A stretch of 64,000 nt of DNA from an uncultured Helicobacteraceae bacterium (lineage in GTDB: Bacteria > Campylobacterota > Campylobacteria > Campylobacterales > Helicobacteraceae), in assembly GCA_944323885.1 (NCBI GenBank), contig CALUUD010000002.1:62001-126000 (forward strand), in the 5' to 3' direction. The number at the start of each line of letters is the position of its first letter. Positions within the stretch are counted from its first letter, which is position 1. Below, one piece after another: positions 21,940 to 39,653 of this stretch. The notes under the pieces are model-generated. The model was given only the letters and a program-made list of their open reading frames with translations. It was not told where the DNA came from and ran no database searches. Both the position numbers and the translations under genes were made by a program.

Positions 21940-24558
21940 TTGAAAAGTATAAGTTTTGTTTATAAAGATAAAGATCAATTAAAAGATAAACTTAGTATTT
22001 TTAGTAATGAAAAGAATATTCTTATACAAATCTTTGATAGTAAGTTTGATACAGATTTTACTAATAAATTAACGAGAGATTTACTTGAATTGTTGCCATT
22101 TAGTGAGATTATGATAACAACAAGTATTGCTGGAATTTCAGATTCTAATGCATTTGAAGGTGAAATTACGATATCAGTTTCTATTTTTCGGGATACTAGT
22201 GTTAAGGTTTTTAGTTTTAGTGGTGATGATGATCACGATATTGCAGGACAAATTTTAAGTAAAGTAACTGATAATACAAAATTATTAATTCTTTTTGGTG
22301 ATAAGAATAAAATTAATTGTGAAATGTTGTTAGATGATATAGCCACCCAATCTCCAGCGACAGTTATTGCAGGTGGAATAGCTGGTGATGATCTAAGTTT
22401 TCAGCGTATACGACTTGGGGATAAAAATGGGATTGGCGATTTTTCATTTATTTGTGCTGTATTAGATTCTAAAATTCTCAAAGTTTATACAAATTATATC
22501 TTTGAGTTCATAGGTATTGGCACCACTATGACTGTAACCAGTGTCGATAAAAATGGTATCGTAAAAACAATAAACAATATGCCAGTAAAAGAGGTTTATA
22601 GAAAGTATCTTGGTGATTTGGTTGCCGATAATCTACCAATGAGTAGTTTTGAATTTCCATTAATATTAAAAGAAAATGGATTGTCTGTTGGTAAGGTTGC
22701 TATTGAAATATTTGATGATGGATCTGCAAGGTATTCAAGTGATGTAAAGCTTGGTGCAGAAGTTGGCTTTGGTGTAAGATCTATTGTTGATACAAGAAAT
22801 AAGGTGTCTAATCAATCAAAAAGTTTAAAAGATTTAAAAATTGAAGGAATCTATCTTTATCTTTGTGCTACTAGGTATATATATTTCAAAAAGGCGCAAT
22901 TAGAAAATCAGTATGTAGATAGGTTTGATAGTGTTGCGCATGCTAGCGGTTTTTTTGCACATGGAGAATTTTTTCATATTAATAATAATAACTATGTATT
23001 TAATGTTTCAAGCACACTTGTTGCTTTGAGTGAGGGTGGTCAAGATGCAGATGGTAAATATGATTCATTAGATTCTCCAATACAAAATACTCAATCTGAT
23101 ATGATTATTCATAGTTTAAGTCATTTATCTAGGGTTGCAAATGATGACTATGAAGCTATGGTTAAGGTGTTTAGGCAGTATAAAGAATTGTTAGAAGAAA
23201 GCTCTATGATATTATATATGAATCAAAAAGGTGTTATAGTAGGTGTAAATAAAGTGTTTTTAGATACATCAAAATATCAAAAATCAAATATAATTGGTAG
23301 AAGACTATCAAACTTTATCTCTTCAGATTCTAAGGGTATTATTGAAAATATATGGGATTGTATTAAGCAACATAAAACATGGAAAGGTACAATAAAAAAT
23401 ATAGCGCAAGATGGTAGCATTTTTTATACTCGTTCCATAGTGAAGCCAATAGTAGATTCCAAAAATAATGTATTGATGTATATTTGTGGAATGGACGATA
23501 TTACAGAATATGAATTAAAAAGACAACGGCTTGAAGATAGTATAGATGCTATTACGGAAATATCATTTGAGAAAGAAAAGATTATTCAAGAATATCAAAC
23601 ACTTCTAGATAGAAGCACTGCTATGGTTAGACTTAAAAAAGGTCATTTTATTGAAGTAAATAAGTCTTGTGAGCAGTTATTTGGATATGCAAGTGGTGAG
23701 CTTATAAATAGACACTTTTCAATAGTTTTAGATAGCAGTAGAAATAATATTACAAATATGATTGATAATATCAAAAAAGTGCTTACTGCAAGAGGATATA
23801 TAAATACATATATACCTTGTATTGATAAAAATGGAAATAGGTTGCACATTCAAGCCTACATAATGACAATAAATACAATTGATAAAGAAGATGCTAGTCA
23901 AGAGTTTGTTGGAATCTTACATAATGTAACAGAAATATTTGAAATACAACAAGAGTTAGTAAATGTTCAAAAAGAAGTTATCTATGCCATGGGTTCAATT
24001 AGTGAAGGCAGAAGTAGAGAAACAGGAAATCATGTAAAAAGAGTTGCTGAGTATTCATATCTTTTGGCTAAATTGTATGGATTAGATGAAACTCAAGCAA
24101 TATTGATAAAAACTGCTTCTCCAATGCATGATATAGGCAAACTTGCAATACCTGATGCTATATTAAATAAGCCTGGAAAACTTACAGAAGAAGAGTTTGA
24201 AATTATGAAGACACATGCCCAAAAAGGCTATGATATGCTCCATTTTTCTGATAGGCCAATTTTAAAAGCAAGTGCAGAAATTGCATTAACTCATCATGAA
24301 TGGTGGAATGGAAATGGTTATCCAAATAAGCTTGTTGGTGAAGATATACCATTATTTGGGCGAATTACTTCTGTTGCAGATGTTTTTGATGCTTTAAGTC
24401 ATGATAGATGTTATAAAAAGGCATGGCCAATGGAAGAAGTCATTGATTATATGCTTAAGATGAAGGATATTCAATTCCAAGGTGTATTAGTTGATTTACT
24501 TGTTGAAAATCTTGATGAATTTATAAAAATAAAAACTGAATTTGAAGACAAATTTTAA
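21940..24558 (+). CDS. FIST-PAS-PAS-HD-GYP signalling protein
   Basis: An 872-aa soluble signalling protein. Residues about 25-220 form a FIST N domain (SIAGISDSNAFEG, then IAGGIAGDD) and about 225-385 a FIST C domain. Two PAS domains follow at about 410-530 and 545-670. The C-terminus is an HD-GYP phosphodiesterase: HD at 730-731 in HDIGK, HHE at 785-787 and GYP at 793-795 are all intact. HD-GYP enzymes break down cyclic di-GMP or related cyclic dinucleotides; FIST domains sense small molecules. TTG start with GTGGAGA upstream, 15 bases after the kinase gene, so it is probably co-expressed. Confidence 0.88.
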   Translation: MKSISFVYKDKDQLKDKLSIFSNEKNILIQIFDSKFDTDFTNKLTRDLLELLPFSEIMITTSIAGISDSNAFEGEITISVSIFRDTSVKVFSFSGDDDHDIAGQILSKVTDNTKLLILFGDKNKINCEMLLDDIATQSPATVIAGGIAGDDLSFQRIRLGDKNGIGDFSFICAVLDSKILKVYTNYIFEFIGIGTTMTVTSVDKNGIVKTINNMPVKEVYRKYLGDLVADNLPMSSFEFPLILKENGLSVGKVAIEIFDDGSARYSSDVKLGAEVGFGVRSIVDTRNKVSNQSKSLKDLKIEGIYLYLCATRYIYFKKAQLENQYVDRFDSVAHASGFFAHGEFFHINNNNYVFNVSSTLVALSEGGQDADGKYDSLDSPIQNTQSDMIIHSLSHLSRVANDDYEAMVKVFRQYKELLEESSMILYMNQKGVIVGVNKVFLDTSKYQKSNIIGRRLSNFISSDSKGIIENIWDCIKQHKTWKGTIKNIAQDGSIFYTRSIVKPIVDSKNNVLMYICGMDDITEYELKRQRLEDSIDAITEISFEKEKIIQEYQTLLDRSTAMVRLKKGHFIEVNKSCEQLFGYASGELINRHFSIVLDSSRNNITNMIDNIKKVLTARGYINTYIPCIDKNGNRLHIQAYIMTINTIDKEDASQEFVGILHNVTEIFEIQQELVNVQKEVIYAMGSISEGRSRETGNHVKRVAEYSYLLAKLYGLDETQAILIKTASPMHDIGKLAIPDAILNKPGKLTEEEFEIMKTHAQKGYDMLHFSDRPILKASAEIALTHHEWWNGNGYPNKLVGEDIPLFGRITSVADVFDALSHDRCYKKAWPMEEVIDYMLKMKDIQFQGVLVDLLVENLDEFIKIKTEFEDKF

Positions 24559-33841: not shown

Positions 33842-34603
33842 ATGAATATTATTGATGTTGTTATTTTAAGCATTATCGAAGGTGTAACTGAGTTTCTGCC
33901 TATATCATCAACAGGGCATTTAATTCTTGCTTCAAAATTACTAGAAATAGAGCAAGATTCTTTTCTTACTAGCTTTCAAATAATTATCCAATTAGGAGCA
34001 ATTCTTGCGGTTTTGTTTTTATTTTGGCGTAAGTTTTTAGATGTTAAATTATTAGCTAAGCTTTTTATTGCATTTTTGCCAACAGGCATCTTTGGATTAC
34101 TCTTGTATAAATTTATAAAAAATTTATTTCATCCCAATACTGTCGCGTATATGTTGATTATTGGTGGTATTTTATTTATTGTCTTAGAGTTATTTTTAAA
34201 AGATAAAAAAACAAAGGTAAATAGCATAGAATCTATAAGTTATAAAAATGCATTTTTTATAGGATGTTTTCAATGTCTTGCTATGATTCCAGGGACTTCA
34301 AGAAGTGGTGCTACTATATTTGGTGGTTTATTATTAAAGCTTGATAGAAAAGTTGCAACAGAATTTTCATTTTTATTAGCAGTTCCTACTATGTTTATTG
34401 CAAGTGGATATGATATATATAAAAATATTGATACTTTTAGTACACAAAATATATCATTTATATTGTTTGGAATGGTTTCTACTTTTATTTTTGCTATTTT
34501 TGCAATCAAAATATTGCTGAAGTTTATTTCAAATTTTAGTTATATATCATTTGGAATTTATAGAATTATTGTGGGTATTATTTTCCTTAGTATTATTTTG
34601 TAA
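33842..34603 (+). CDS. uppP: Undecaprenyl-diphosphatase
   Basis: A 253-aa membrane phosphatase (BacA family) recycling undecaprenyl pyrophosphate for cell wall and O-antigen synthesis. The two signature loops EGVTEFLPISSTGH and PGTSRSGATIFGG are intact, with about eight helices. The ATG at 33842 follows TTAGGATTAA; an upstream ATG at 33812 would add ten residues lying at the presumed transcription start. The 3' end overlaps the convergent transporter gene by 11 nt. Confidence 0.95.
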   Translation: MNIIDVVILSIIEGVTEFLPISSTGHLILASKLLEIEQDSFLTSFQIIIQLGAILAVLFLFWRKFLDVKLLAKLFIAFLPTGIFGLLLYKFIKNLFHPNTVAYMLIIGGILFIVLELFLKDKKTKVNSIESISYKNAFFIGCFQCLAMIPGTSRSGATIFGGLLLKLDRKVATEFSFLLAVPTMFIASGYDIYKNIDTFSTQNISFILFGMVSTFIFAIFAIKILLKFISNFSYISFGIYRIIVGIIFLSIIL

Positions 34604-35510
34604 TATTTGCTTTGAATTTGATTATGTATTTTTTTATATTTAAAAAATGTATATGTTTTTTATTGTATATACTAATTAGGTATATTGCAAAAATTGCTAG
34701 AGTTCCACCTATAACAATATGCAGGTTCGGAGTTTCTTTCAATATAATTCCAGATGACAATAATGCAAAAAATGGCACCAATAATGTAAATGATGCTGAT
34801 TTTGTGATACCTAGTACTTCTATGCCTTTAAAATATATTGTTGTTCCAAATACTGTTGAAAATAGCACTATAATAAGTAGTAAAATCATAGAATCTGCAT
34901 CTTTTAATATTAAAAAATCTTTTGCTTCTAAAAATGGAATAAATAAAATAGCACTGCAAAGTGAACTATAAAAATTAATCACAAATGGGTTAATATCCCC
35001 TAATTTTTTTGCACTTAGCGTTACACAAGCCCATAAAAATGAACATATAGTAAAAAATATATTAAATGGATTAAGCAAGGATTCTATACTAGTTAGATTT
35101 AGCAAGAAAAATCCAGATATAAGTCCAATGATTAATCCCAATCCTTCTTTTGTTTTAAGCTTGTTTTTAAAGATGATAATTGATAAAAATGTAGCTATTA
35201 TTGGTGCTAAGGTTGTGGTGATTACACCCGCACTTCCTGCATTTCCAAATCTTATGGCATAAAAAAATAAAATTGAGTATGATGCATTAAATATAATATT
35301 TGCAATTATTGTTGGTATTTTATTTTTTGGTATTTTTATGTTTATCTTAGAATATACTAGTATAGGAATGATGCATAGCGAAACTAGGATAAATCTCATA
35401 AATGCTATCCCAAATACAGAATGAGTATTTGATAATATCTTTGATAATGGCCAAGATAACCCCCAAGCAAACATTGCAAAGAATAATAATATTATAAATA
35501 TATTCTTCAT
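34593..35510 (-). CDS. EamA/DMT-family transporter
   Basis: A 305-aa protein with ten predicted membrane helices in two EamA repeats. It shows AWGLSWPLSKIL at the start, GNAGSAGVITTTLAPI after helix 3 and IVLFSTVFGTTIYFKGIEVLG in the second repeat. Members export amino acids, metabolites or sugars; the substrate here is unknown. Its ATG shares one base with the stop of the 550-aa GTPase gene (TAATG), so it is part of the GTPase operon. Confidence 0.88.
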   Translation of the reverse strand: MKNIFIILLFFAMFAWGLSWPLSKILSNTHSVFGIAFMRFILVSLCIIPILVYSKINIKIPKNKIPTIIANIIFNASYSILFFYAIRFGNAGSAGVITTTLAPIIATFLSIIIFKNKLKTKEGLGLIIGLISGFFLLNLTSIESLLNPFNIFFTICSFLWACVTLSAKKLGDINPFVINFYSSLCSAILFIPFLEAKDFLILKDADSMILLLIIVLFSTVFGTTIYFKGIEVLGITKSASFTLLVPFFALLSSGIILKETPNLHIVIGGTLAIFAIYLISIYNKKHIHFLNIKKYIIKFKANITK

Positions 35511-37162
35511 TATTTTTCTTTATTTATTATGCTTAGTAGACTTTGGGCATTTGCTTTTAATATTTCTATATCTAGTATTATTTTGCTTATTTGTTCACAT
35601 TTTGTTGCTTTTGTGCTTTCAAATTCAATTGCTATATTTCGTATAAAATTAGAATCAAATTTATTTGTAAATATGTATGAATTAACAATATTTTCTATTA
35701 TAAGTTCTATATCATTTTTGCTTGGTTTATCATTTAGTTTTTCTAACTCATCATTTATTTTGTTTAAAATGAATTCAATTAATAATTTTCTTTGAATATC
35801 AAATGATGATTCTATTTTTGATATTTGTGCCGTTATATTTAAAATTAAATCAAGCGACAATAATACAAAGCTATTAATGATATTTTCATGTATTTTTAGA
35901 GCATAGAATTTTAGATTATCTATATGAAGCTCTGTAATGAAAGTATTTGTCTTATTAAAATTATGTATTTTTATTTGCCATATTTTTACATCACCTACAA
36001 AATCATTTCTGTATTGTTTTATTTGGTTTATCACATCTTCTTTTATTTTTGATAATTTATATATATTTGCACGATTATTTCTTGAATAGTTATTATCTTC
36101 ATCAAGTAATTCATTTCTTAATATATCTGTATTTAGTGCATATTGTATTTTAGTATCTATTTTTTTTACTTTTAGAAGTTTATTTTTTCTTATAAAGTCA
36201 ATTTTTTTAGAGATTATATTTGAATAACAGAGTTTTGATATTGTTTTTAGATTTATAATGAAATCATCGTTTGCATTACTTAAATTAGATTCTATTGCAT
36301 CACTTAATTCTGCAATGTGTTGCATAAAATTTTGATTGTTTATTATATTATGTAGCTCAAGATATGAATCTATTAGTTCATCATATGATTTTATGCTATC
36401 TTGAATTAGTTTTACCATAGCTCTTTTTATTCTTTTTGTTTTTTTTGCTTGAGCTTTTTTTATTATTATATTTTCTAATACGTCTTTTATATTATTATCT
36501 TGTGATATGATAGATGTGAGCATTATTGGTGTTTTTTGAAGAGATTCTATATTGCTAGATTCTATTAGTGAATATTTATCTTTTATTGTTATTTTTATGT
36601 CATTTAGTTCATCTTGTGTCAATAAATCTATTTTGCTAAGTATTGCAAAATCACAATCTAGAAAATCTAATTTATCATTTATGTGGATACAAATATCATA
36701 GTTGTCATAATCAATGTATTTAGAATCATTTTCTATAATTGTTATGTTTTTTAATATATCATTATCTAAAAATATTTCTATAAATTCACATTCACTTATC
36801 ATATCTAACATATTTATGCTTTGAGTTAATACCCCATCTTTTGTATGTATTTTGATATATGGAATATTTGAATATTTTATTGTGGCATTAACTTTGTTTT
36901 TCTTTGATACTATATTACCACCTAATATGGCATTTATAAAACTAGTTTTACCTACCCCTGTATTACCTTTTATACATATCGATAGTGGCTCATTAATGCT
37001 GTTTTTAATGTTGGCTTTAAAATCTAGCATCTTCTTTTTGTCTTTTATTCGTGTGTATTCTAAAAATGTTGATAACTCTTTTAGAATATTATCTGGTTTA
37101 TTATTTTCATTTATTCTTGATATTTTTAAATATTCTTCTATAAAATTATTTATTATGCTCAT
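35510..37162 (-). CDS. Large P-loop GTPase-like protein A (550 aa), unknown function
   Basis: A 550-aa protein with a clear Walker A/G1 GNTGVGKT at residues 66-73 and a G4 SKID at 176-179. The canonical DxxG switch (G3) is absent: the matching strand reads TIIENDSKYIDYD. After about residue 220 the protein is long-helical and Lys/Asn/Ile-rich, probably coiled coil. This plan (short G domain, long helical stalk) recalls dynamin-like and GBP-type GTPases, but I do not recognise the family. ATG overlaps the stop of GTPase B (ATGA), so the two are coupled and likely act together. Confidence 0.7.
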   Translation of the reverse strand: MSIINNFIEEYLKISRINENNKPDNILKELSTFLEYTRIKDKKKMLDFKANIKNSINEPLSICIKGNTGVGKTSFINAILGGNIVSKKNKVNATIKYSNIPYIKIHTKDGVLTQSINMLDMISECEFIEIFLDNDILKNITIIENDSKYIDYDNYDICIHINDKLDFLDCDFAILSKIDLLTQDELNDIKITIKDKYSLIESSNIESLQKTPIMLTSIISQDNNIKDVLENIIIKKAQAKKTKRIKRAMVKLIQDSIKSYDELIDSYLELHNIINNQNFMQHIAELSDAIESNLSNANDDFIINLKTISKLCYSNIISKKIDFIRKNKLLKVKKIDTKIQYALNTDILRNELLDEDNNYSRNNRANIYKLSKIKEDVINQIKQYRNDFVGDVKIWQIKIHNFNKTNTFITELHIDNLKFYALKIHENIINSFVLLSLDLILNITAQISKIESSFDIQRKLLIEFILNKINDELEKLNDKPSKNDIELIIENIVNSYIFTNKFDSNFIRNIAIEFESTKATKCEQISKIILDIEILKANAQSLLSIINKEK

Positions 37163-39045
37163 TTTTTATCTTTATTCAATGTAATTAGTGACATCAATAT
37201 TTCTCTTGCTTGTTTTAAGTTATCTTTATTGTGCTTTGTCTTAAGTGATTCTTCAATACTGTTTAAACATTGCTTTGATTTGTTTAATACCATGGTAATT
37301 TTATTTTCTATGTCTAAACAAATAAAAATACATTTTCTTGTATACATAAAATTTTCTTTGTTTATATTGCTGTTTAATAAATCTGCCATTGCATTTATTA
37401 AAAAAGGATTCTTAAATATAAATATTTTTTTTATTTCATTTTTTAATATGTTTAGATGTAGTGCCATAATATCTTTTTGTCGTTTGTTTAGATTGATTGA
37501 TGATTTTATATTATTTAGGAATTTAAGTGTTGCTGTTTCAAATGATTTAGAAGTATCAATAAATATATCATTCATTGAATCACTAACTTTTATTTTTAAT
37601 AGTATTTGCTTATTTATTCTATTATTTTGTTGCAATATAGATTCAAATATTATTTTTGTCATTGCTGTTATTTTGCTATACATTTTGTTTTTTATTCTTT
37701 TTAATTCAATTTCATATTCATTTATTATTTGATGATCAAATTGGACTTCTATGCTGTTATTTTGCATCATTTGGATATATATTTTTAACTGCGTGCTAAG
37801 TGTTGAAACTAGTTCCCTGTGTGTTGTTTTTAGCTGTTCTTTATTATTAAAAATATGATCTTTTATATAATTATTTAATTTATATATTCCGCTATCTTGG
37901 ATTCTAAAACCTTTGCTTAATGCTAAATGTCCTTTATCTTGTATATACATCATAGCTATATTTGGTGCTGTTGCTATAAAATTTAGTTTATTTATGATTT
38001 CTACTTCTTTTATTTTATATCTTTTCAGTGTGAAATATATCTTCTTTGTTATGCTTTTTTTTATAATTTTTAATTCATCAGAGCTAATTAAATCAAAATG
38101 GCTGCAGATGATTATGATATTTTTTGTTTCTTTGAATATAAATGCAATATTATTTATATCAATATCACTAATTTCCTTGCTTATATCAATAATATACAAT
38201 ATTAGGTTTGCACTATTTATTATATTTTGTGAATAAATTTTTGTGAAAGGATTGCAAATTGGTGGTATTTCATATATATTAATATTGCAGTTTGTAATGT
38301 CACTTCTTATGAAAATGTTATTTTGCAAATTTAAGTCACTCTTGTTGTAGTATCTTAATATTTCTAGCATAGCATCACTTGCTATAAAATTTGTATTTTT
38401 ACTTGATATAAGTGTAATACCATTTTTACTAGGAATTGCATCTGTCTTGTTTAATGCTTTTATTAGCGTAGTTTTGCCAGCACCACTTAATCCAAGAATA
38501 ACAATATTGAACATCTTATTGTTGTTAATGATGTATTTTATTTTTTGCTGTATATCTTTGCTTTCTATATTTTTTGTTATATTTGTTATGGTATTTATTA
38601 ATTCTATATAGTTATTGTTTTCTAAGAAATCAATATCATTCCTTATATCTTTTATATTTTTTTCATTTACAATATTTTTATCATTACCTATTGTATTTTT
38701 TATATTTTGTTCTTCTTCATAATAAATAATATGGCTTGCTCTTAGCTTTGATATAAGGCTTATTATGTGCTTTTTATTATTTGATTGTATAAAATATAGT
38801 AATGCCTCGTTTTGTAAAATTTTTATAGAATCTTCATTAATTTCTAATTGTATTTTATTGCATAATTTTTTTATTAAGCTGTGTTGCAAAAAAATAGACA
38901 TATTCCTTTTATTACAACACAGTAATATTGCTATTATTTCATCTTCATTTGCCTTATTGTCTAAAAATTCATTGAAAGGAATTCTTTTGTTTGGTGGATT
39001 TTGATTGTAAATATTTAGAAAGAAGTATTTGCTAATTTTATTCAT
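37159..39045 (-). CDS. Large P-loop GTPase-like protein B (628 aa), unknown function
   Basis: A 628-aa protein. About 180 N-terminal helical residues precede a P-loop GLSGAGKTT at about 185-193. The G3 position reads YEIPP where most GTPases have DxPG, and G4 reads CSHFDL. The C-terminal half is helical. It pairs with GTPase A on the same message. I chose the ATG at 39045, which shares a base with the upstream TGA stop; a TTG one codon earlier is possible. Paired bacterial dynamin-like proteins exist in Campylobacter; kinship is suggested only by layout. Confidence 0.68.
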   Translation of the reverse strand: MNKISKYFFLNIYNQNPPNKRIPFNEFLDNKANEDEIIAILLCCNKRNMSIFLQHSLIKKLCNKIQLEINEDSIKILQNEALLYFIQSNNKKHIISLISKLRASHIIYYEEEQNIKNTIGNDKNIVNEKNIKDIRNDIDFLENNNYIELINTITNITKNIESKDIQQKIKYIINNNKMFNIVILGLSGAGKTTLIKALNKTDAIPSKNGITLISSKNTNFIASDAMLEILRYYNKSDLNLQNNIFIRSDITNCNINIYEIPPICNPFTKIYSQNIINSANLILYIIDISKEISDIDINNIAFIFKETKNIIIICSHFDLISSDELKIIKKSITKKIYFTLKRYKIKEVEIINKLNFIATAPNIAMMYIQDKGHLALSKGFRIQDSGIYKLNNYIKDHIFNNKEQLKTTHRELVSTLSTQLKIYIQMMQNNSIEVQFDHQIINEYEIELKRIKNKMYSKITAMTKIIFESILQQNNRINKQILLKIKVSDSMNDIFIDTSKSFETATLKFLNNIKSSINLNKRQKDIMALHLNILKNEIKKIFIFKNPFLINAMADLLNSNINKENFMYTRKCIFICLDIENKITMVLNKSKQCLNSIEESLKTKHNKDNLKQAREILMSLITLNKDKK

Positions 39046-39653
39046 CAATTATTCCATAGATATAATGCCACAGCTTGAAGTCCTTTTTCATCTATATTGT
39101 TGCAATATTGTTTTAATTTGATTTTTAAATCAGCGATATTTTTAGCTTTTATTTTATCTGTATTATTGCAATACTCATCTGCTATATTTTTACCAAGTTT
39201 TATCATTTTGGCTTGGTTGTTTTTAATCATTTTTGCATCATCATCAAATTTTGATTTTACATATTGTATTATTTCTTTACCATTAATTATTTTGCCACCA
39301 TTTTCTTGTATAAATATTTTTACATCATCATTATCACTAAATGCAAATTCACTTTCTTTAGTCATTGCACCCTTTTTATTGCTGCCTATTACATAAATTA
39401 ATTCACCTATTGGTTTAAAAGAATTTGTAGTATTGTCAAATCCCATGATTTTATAGTTATTGTTATTTTTTGTTGTTTCTATAACACAATGCAATGAGCA
39501 TACAGATGTTTCTTCCTCATTTATTATTACTTTGTGTTGCGTTTCTTTGTGATGTTTCAAATTCATTCCACACTTTTGACAATATTCATTTGTATATAGT
39601 AAAAATGGGATTAGCAGTATTGCAAAGATTCTCATAGTATGGATTTTTTTCAT
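39045..39653 (-). CDS. NosL-like protein with degenerate cytochrome-like C-terminus
   Basis: A 202-aa exported protein. A hydrophobic segment (about 8-20) precedes CQKCGM at 25-30 and CSLHC at 52-56, the cysteine/methionine pattern of NosL-type copper-binding proteins. The C-terminal 70 residues (KLGKNIADEYCN, then GLQAVALYLWNN) resemble a c-type cytochrome domain but have no CxxCH haem site. No nos genes are nearby. It is first in the operon with the two GTPases and the EamA transporter. A role in copper or redox handling at the membrane is inferred. Confidence 0.6.
   Translation of the reverse strand: MKKIHTMRIFAILLIPFLLYTNEYCQKCGMNLKHHKETQHKVIINEEETSVCSLHCVIETTKNNNNYKIMGFDNTTNSFKPIGELIYVIGSNKKGAMTKESEFAFSDNDDVKIFIQENGGKIINGKEIIQYVKSKFDDDAKMIKNNQAKMIKLGKNIADEYCNNTDKIKAKNIADLKIKLKQYCNNIDEKGLQAVALYLWNN

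Follow-up and report, generated by a model that had tools for sequence, protein, structure and literature searches.

A dynamin-like protein pair of Helicobacteraceae with eroded switch motifs in both partners, a candidate membrane tether with lost or fading GTP hydrolysis

We analysed a stretch of 64,000 nucleotides from an uncultured Helicobacteraceae bacterium (GenBank assembly GCA_944323885.1, contig CALUUD010000002.1, positions 62,001 to 126,000; hereafter the window), which carries at positions 35510-39045 of the minus strand two coupled genes for large P-loop proteins. A first-pass annotation, made from the sequence alone, had described them as a GTPase-like pair of a family that it could not name. 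The family can be named: profile comparisons and predicted structures identify the two proteins as far-diverged relatives of Cj-DLP1 and Cj-DLP2, the dynamin-like protein (DLP) pair of Campylobacterales (cj0411/cj0412; PDB 5owv, 5oxf; PMC6104087). They belong to a clade in which both partners lack the catalytic motif DTPG and the genes have stayed under purifying selection. The reading that we favour, with a probability of roughly 0.55, is that the window pair forms a heterotetramer that tethers membranes and in which GTP hydrolysis is lost or on its way out.

Both genes, and all features of the pair described below, lie on the minus strand. The DLP1-type gene (37159-39045) encodes 628 amino acids from its ATG (the list of open reading frames gives 629, counted from an upstream TTG), and the DLP2-type gene (35510-37162) encodes 550; the junction, AAAATGAGC, reads as the four-base ATGA overlap that had been noted. 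That the genes are real is shown by a congener, G002, in which both stand intact side by side, with 48% (DLP1) and 47% (DLP2) identity and ratios of nonsynonymous to synonymous change (dN/dS) of 0.17 and 0.30, respectively, at near-saturated dS.

Homology to Cj-DLP1/Cj-DLP2 rests on intermediates because profiles of the two genus sequences, from the window and G002, do not reach 5owv in a search of PDB. With single window sequences, PDB (phmmer), Pfam and NCBIfam returned only weak P-loop or Der-like matches, and neither protein matched Pfam Dynamin_N at E up to 1. Relatives in other Helicobacteraceae are longer (about 720-880 amino acids for DLP1 and about 570-700 for DLP2), and are adjacent pairs in most genera. 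Where their motifs are intact they can be clearly recognised as dynamin-like: a pair taken as an example scores 107/96 bits on Dynamin_N. Profiles that combine these relatives with the window proteins match 5owv_A at 2.1e-119 (DLP1) and 5owv_C at 1.6e-107 (DLP2), each finding its own partner first. As canonical members dominate these profiles, the two genus sequences were also aligned by themselves to profiles made only of canonical proteins, and hhalign joined them over long spans with E = 7e-28 for DLP1 and 1.8e-26 for DLP2.

Structure prediction points the same way. The AlphaFold models (mean predicted local distance difference test score, pLDDT, of 78.1 for DLP1 and 79.9 for DLP2) show the G domain as a G fold, and each resembles its own C. 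jejuni partner best: the DLP2 model matches 5owv_C with Z 23.9 and 5.7 Å over 531 residues, and the DLP1 model matches 5owv_B with Z 22.1 and a large root-mean-square deviation, which hinge differences would explain. Identity to Cj-DLP1 and Cj-DLP2 in the structural alignments is only about 13-19%. The likeness in layout to paired dynamin-like proteins, remarked on in the first-pass annotation, is correct. No full-length match to compete with this came from the other families that it named (GBP, septin and YjiA/YeeP-type).

Beyond these partner-specific matches, the window genes share with the C. jejuni pair their adjacency, their domain order and the two joining elements, the N-terminal assembly domain of DLP1 and helix 1 of DLP2. 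The assembly domain (residues 1-119, 38689-39045; aligned with canonical members and 5owv_A) is the part of window DLP1 that matches relatives best, with 22-36% identity, at least as high as in the rest of the protein. Helix 1, MSIINNFIEEYLKISR (37115-37162), shows 24-46% identity to relatives, again at least that of the rest of the protein, and its F7 is invariant in two DLP2 alignments. By contrast with C. jejuni, DTPG is absent from both window partners, switch I is not conserved and the G domains are shortened. Within the DLP1 G domain (residues 177-404, 37834-38517), the span from G1 to G3 measures 72 residues against 104-131 in other groups, and is about 57 residues shorter. The P-loops are as clean as first described: GLSGAGKTT in DLP1 (residues 185-193, 38467-38493) and GNTGVGKTS in DLP2 (residues 66-74, 36941-36967). 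The altered switch motifs are likewise real and meaningful: IYEIPPICNP in DLP1 (residues 257-266, 38248-38277) aligns with canonical (I/L)(V/I)DTPGLDDP, and IIENDS in DLP2 (residues 142-147, 36722-36739) with FLDTPG. Remnants of G4 that keep the Asp stand at 38092-38103 (SHFD in DLP1, canonical T(R/H)xD) and 36626-36637 (SKID in DLP2, canonical NQKD).

The motif loss is not peculiar to the window species, an explanation that a wider survey ruled out. Four genus-level groups are affected: the window genus (g1, comprising the window and G002), two other Helicobacteraceae genera, g2 (7 genomes) and g4 (2 genomes), and a second copy of the pair, g5B, in a further genus of the family, g5 (12 DLP1 and 11 DLP2 rows). 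Every canonical row carries DTPG, 36 of DLP1 and 37 of DLP2, and none of the 23 DLP1 and 22 DLP2 rows of the degenerate set does. The erosion is graded. Members of g2 retain full length and the DLP1 P-loop and read NTPN (DLP1) and K(H/C/Y)PD (DLP2) at G3; from the DLP2 proteins of g4 and g5B the P-loop has gone entirely (GENPSDKLL and GDCHLSMIA); and in g1 the DLP1 stretch between G1 and G3 is the one shortened by about 57 residues. Dynamin_N scores drop with this erosion, from the 107/96 bits of the canonical example to 55/24 in a g2 pair and to no match in the tested pairs of g1, g4 and g5B.

This degenerate set probably arose once. In maximum-likelihood trees of DLP1 and of DLP2, built with the motif columns removed, it forms one clade (Shimodaira-Hasegawa-like approximate likelihood ratio test support, SH-aLRT, of 99 in each), and the branching order (g1,(g2,(g4,g5B))) is common to both. 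When g1, g2 or g4/g5B was dropped in turn from a joint tree, a single branch still parted the degenerate rows from the others in 3/3 trees, these being quick trees of which one warns of joined long branches; this result was our reason for rejecting convergent loss united by long-branch attraction. Because the trees of both partners give one clade and the clade survives the drop-outs, a single origin is likely. Outside the family, no degenerate DLP1 turned up among the best-scoring loci read from a 299-genome sample of the order, as 28 of 28 have DTPG.

In g5 genomes, the adjacent degenerate pair (loci L099, L100, L103, L104 and L188-L194) coexists with canonical DLP1 and DLP2 genes, which are unlinked wherever both were located (G008, G020 and G095), an unusual split of a normally adjacent pair. 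Two other genomes, G043 (L051:2657-9834) and G054 (L052:3166-10393), carry a canonical pair after apparent fumarate reductase genes, and the neighbours of the pair differ by genus within the window's family.

The degenerate genes are not pseudogenes. Pairs of g2, g4 and g5B with measurable dS give dN/dS of 0.08-0.14, against 0.09-0.15 in canonical pairs, and these values, with those of the window genus, show that the genes are under purifying selection. What has changed is where conservation lies within the proteins. The ratio of G-domain to assembly-domain identity in DLP1 is 1.5-2.5 in five canonical groups and 0.9-1.2 in four degenerate groups; in DLP2, helix 1 and the segment that follows are at least as conserved as the G domain in degenerate groups and on average less so in canonical ones. 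Canonical and degenerate groups are fully separated on this ratio for both partners, the four degenerate groups sharing one origin and so not being independent in the comparison. Relative to the G domain, the assembly parts have gained in conservation in the degenerate clade.

The C. jejuni proteins suggest what such a complex might do. There, a 2:2 tetramer forms as DLP2 lodges its helix 1 in the assembly domain of DLP1, and deleting either element abolishes the complex; GTP turnover needs both P-loops, whereas lipids are bound and membranes tethered by way of the DLP1 trunk whether nucleotide is there or not, Cj-DLP1 doing the recruitment at low concentration (PMC6104087). The authors of that study call the role of the nucleotide unclear. 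GTP turnover by Cj-DLP1/2 is 3.6 uM/min at 1 uM. The window proteins descend from this type and, by analogy, would form a heteromeric pair: helix 1 of DLP2 would dock in the assembly domain of DLP1, and the helical trunks, chiefly that of DLP1, would let the complex bind and bridge membranes. With DTPG of switch II gone from both partners and switch I not conserved, GTP hydrolysis would be reduced or absent across the clade, and the window pair would serve to tether membranes, or as a scaffold, independently of nucleotide, which its DLP1 may still bind. We consider this the most economical proposal because the parts that join the partners and the DLP1 trunk are kept and the switch motif is lost in both. 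Nucleotide-independent tethering has been reported for DynA and IniA (PMC6104087, PMC6715688), and LeoA, tested alone, showed neither nucleotide binding nor hydrolysis (PMC4159319).

A bolder form of the proposal is more tentative, and we hold it at somewhat less than even odds: that this Helicobacteraceae clade turned its dynamin pair into a true pseudo-GTPase tether, free of hydrolysis in both partners, which replaced the GTP-driven version in g1, g2 and g4. A literature search found no report of pseudo-GTPase or degenerate bacterial dynamins among the titles and abstracts of the collection searched. The earlier label of a GTPase pair is doubtful as a statement of function, as the hydrolysis residues are missing from both partners and from related lineages; the family is a known one, yet these members are not ordinary. 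A clade that has lost the catalytic motifs in both partners, with both genes kept under purifying selection, amounts to a natural separation-of-function experiment on the role of the nucleotide. It also means that one dynamin-like group escapes the standard domain models. Furthermore, the assembly domain, described as Campylobacter-specific, is wider in the order, occurring also in Helicobacteraceae, Sulfurospirillum and Poseidonibacter.

Several observations weigh against a tether that works without hydrolysis. Membrane binding is unassured, as the neck and trunk of window DLP1 (residues 405-628, 37162-37833; delimited from the AlphaFold model and the alignment to 5owv_B) are shorter and poorly conserved, with 9-14% identity to the groups compared. 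Window DLP2 has lost the hydrophobic lipid-binding loop (FVLF) of the trunk tip: at NDKPSKND (35711-35734), about 12 residues that include the FVLF position of Cj-DLP2 are missing in the alignment with canonical DLP2 and 5owv_C. The match of the models to 5owv is not independent of canonical relatives, which are included in the AlphaFold input alignments. Moreover, the pair was found in two of the four near-complete genomes of the genus and not in the two others, and may thus be dispensable or being lost. Finally, both window proteins retain the P-loop Lys and the G4 Asp and may therefore bind nucleotide, or hydrolyse it with residues that have migrated.

One alternative is that the proteins are a divergent but active dynamin GTPase pair, in which the residues for catalysis have shifted or been substituted (Glu standing for the G3 Asp, for example) and GTP is still hydrolysed through hetero-G-dimers. 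Retention of the P-loop GK and the G4 Asp in the window proteins, and mostly in g2, would fit, as would purifying selection over the whole protein and a G domain still modelled as a G fold. However, the replacement residue is itself unconserved, DLP1 reading YEIPP in the window, FSIPA in the congener, NTPN in g2 and MLPS in g4; the congener DLP1 has GKQ where GK(S/T) is expected and the window has GKT; and the loss of the P-loop from DLP2 in g4 and g5B is hard to reconcile with the need of Cj-DLP1/2 turnover for both P-loops. We therefore think an active pair unlikely.

A second alternative, which we judge no more probable, is that the pair is a relic under relaxed constraint, on its way out of the genus and with no important present function. 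Its patchy occurrence in the genus speaks for this, as does G004, in which the whole NosL-DLP1-DLP2-EamA block that houses the pair is missing between UppP and nrdB, and so do the long branch (about 2 changes per column) and the shortened G domains. Yet both frames are intact in two species only 48% identical, at the low dN/dS already given; the assembly domain and helix 1 rank with the parts conserved best; and degenerate pairs persist in the sister lineages, in 7 genomes of g2, 2 of g4 and about 12 of g5. A third possibility, an unrelated P-loop family with chance similarity to dynamins, could appeal to the weak single-sequence matches and the failure of two-sequence profiles to find 5owv, but it is effectively refuted by the long profile-profile matches to canonical members, with E values of 1e-26 to 1e-28, by the partner-specific structure matches and by an EamA neighbour shared with g2.

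The canonical pairs of other Helicobacteraceae, Sulfurospirillum and Poseidonibacter are homologous full-length pairs, usually adjacent, with G1, G3 and G4 intact and, as in the example above, matches to Dynamin_N that the window pair lacks. Mitofusins, Nostoc BDLP1, IniA, LeoA and Bacillus DynA share the dynamin superfamily fold, but the cited literature describes no Cj-type assembly domain in them, and LeoA, unlike the window pair, has kept most hydrolysis residues.

The pair is part of a cluster that extends past 35510-39045, with four genes joined by overlaps of 1-4 bases. It opens with a NosL-family lipoprotein gene (39045-39653, minus strand; Pfam NosL 1.1e-13), whose stop codon overlaps the start of the DLP1 gene, and ends downstream with an EamA-family transporter gene (34593-35510, minus strand; Pfam EamA 1.9e-38). 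These neighbours are not those of the C. jejuni operon; in G002 the four genes recur in this order, and an EamA-family gene is also close to the pair in g2. The G+C content of the pair (35510-39045) is 0.219, against 0.275 for the whole window, and a promoter and terminator scan found signals no more often than in shuffled sequences. In G004, two open reading frames of 133 and 250 amino acids lie between UppP and nrdB (L132:6911-8114), neither of which matches anything in the part of the window that was compared.

No second dynamin-like pair was seen in the window's genome, where Dynamin_N gave two weak matches and the DLP1 profile this gene alone. A contig scan with DLP2 found nothing. G002 carries a second, Dynamin_N-like gene cluster (G002:C27:97463-100813; frames of 503, 607 and 276 amino acids) that is positionally unrelated to the pair, and similar clusters occur in other genomes of the family. 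Elsewhere in the window, positions 21940-24558 of the plus strand encode a protein of 872 amino acids that combines FIST sensor, PAS and HD domains.

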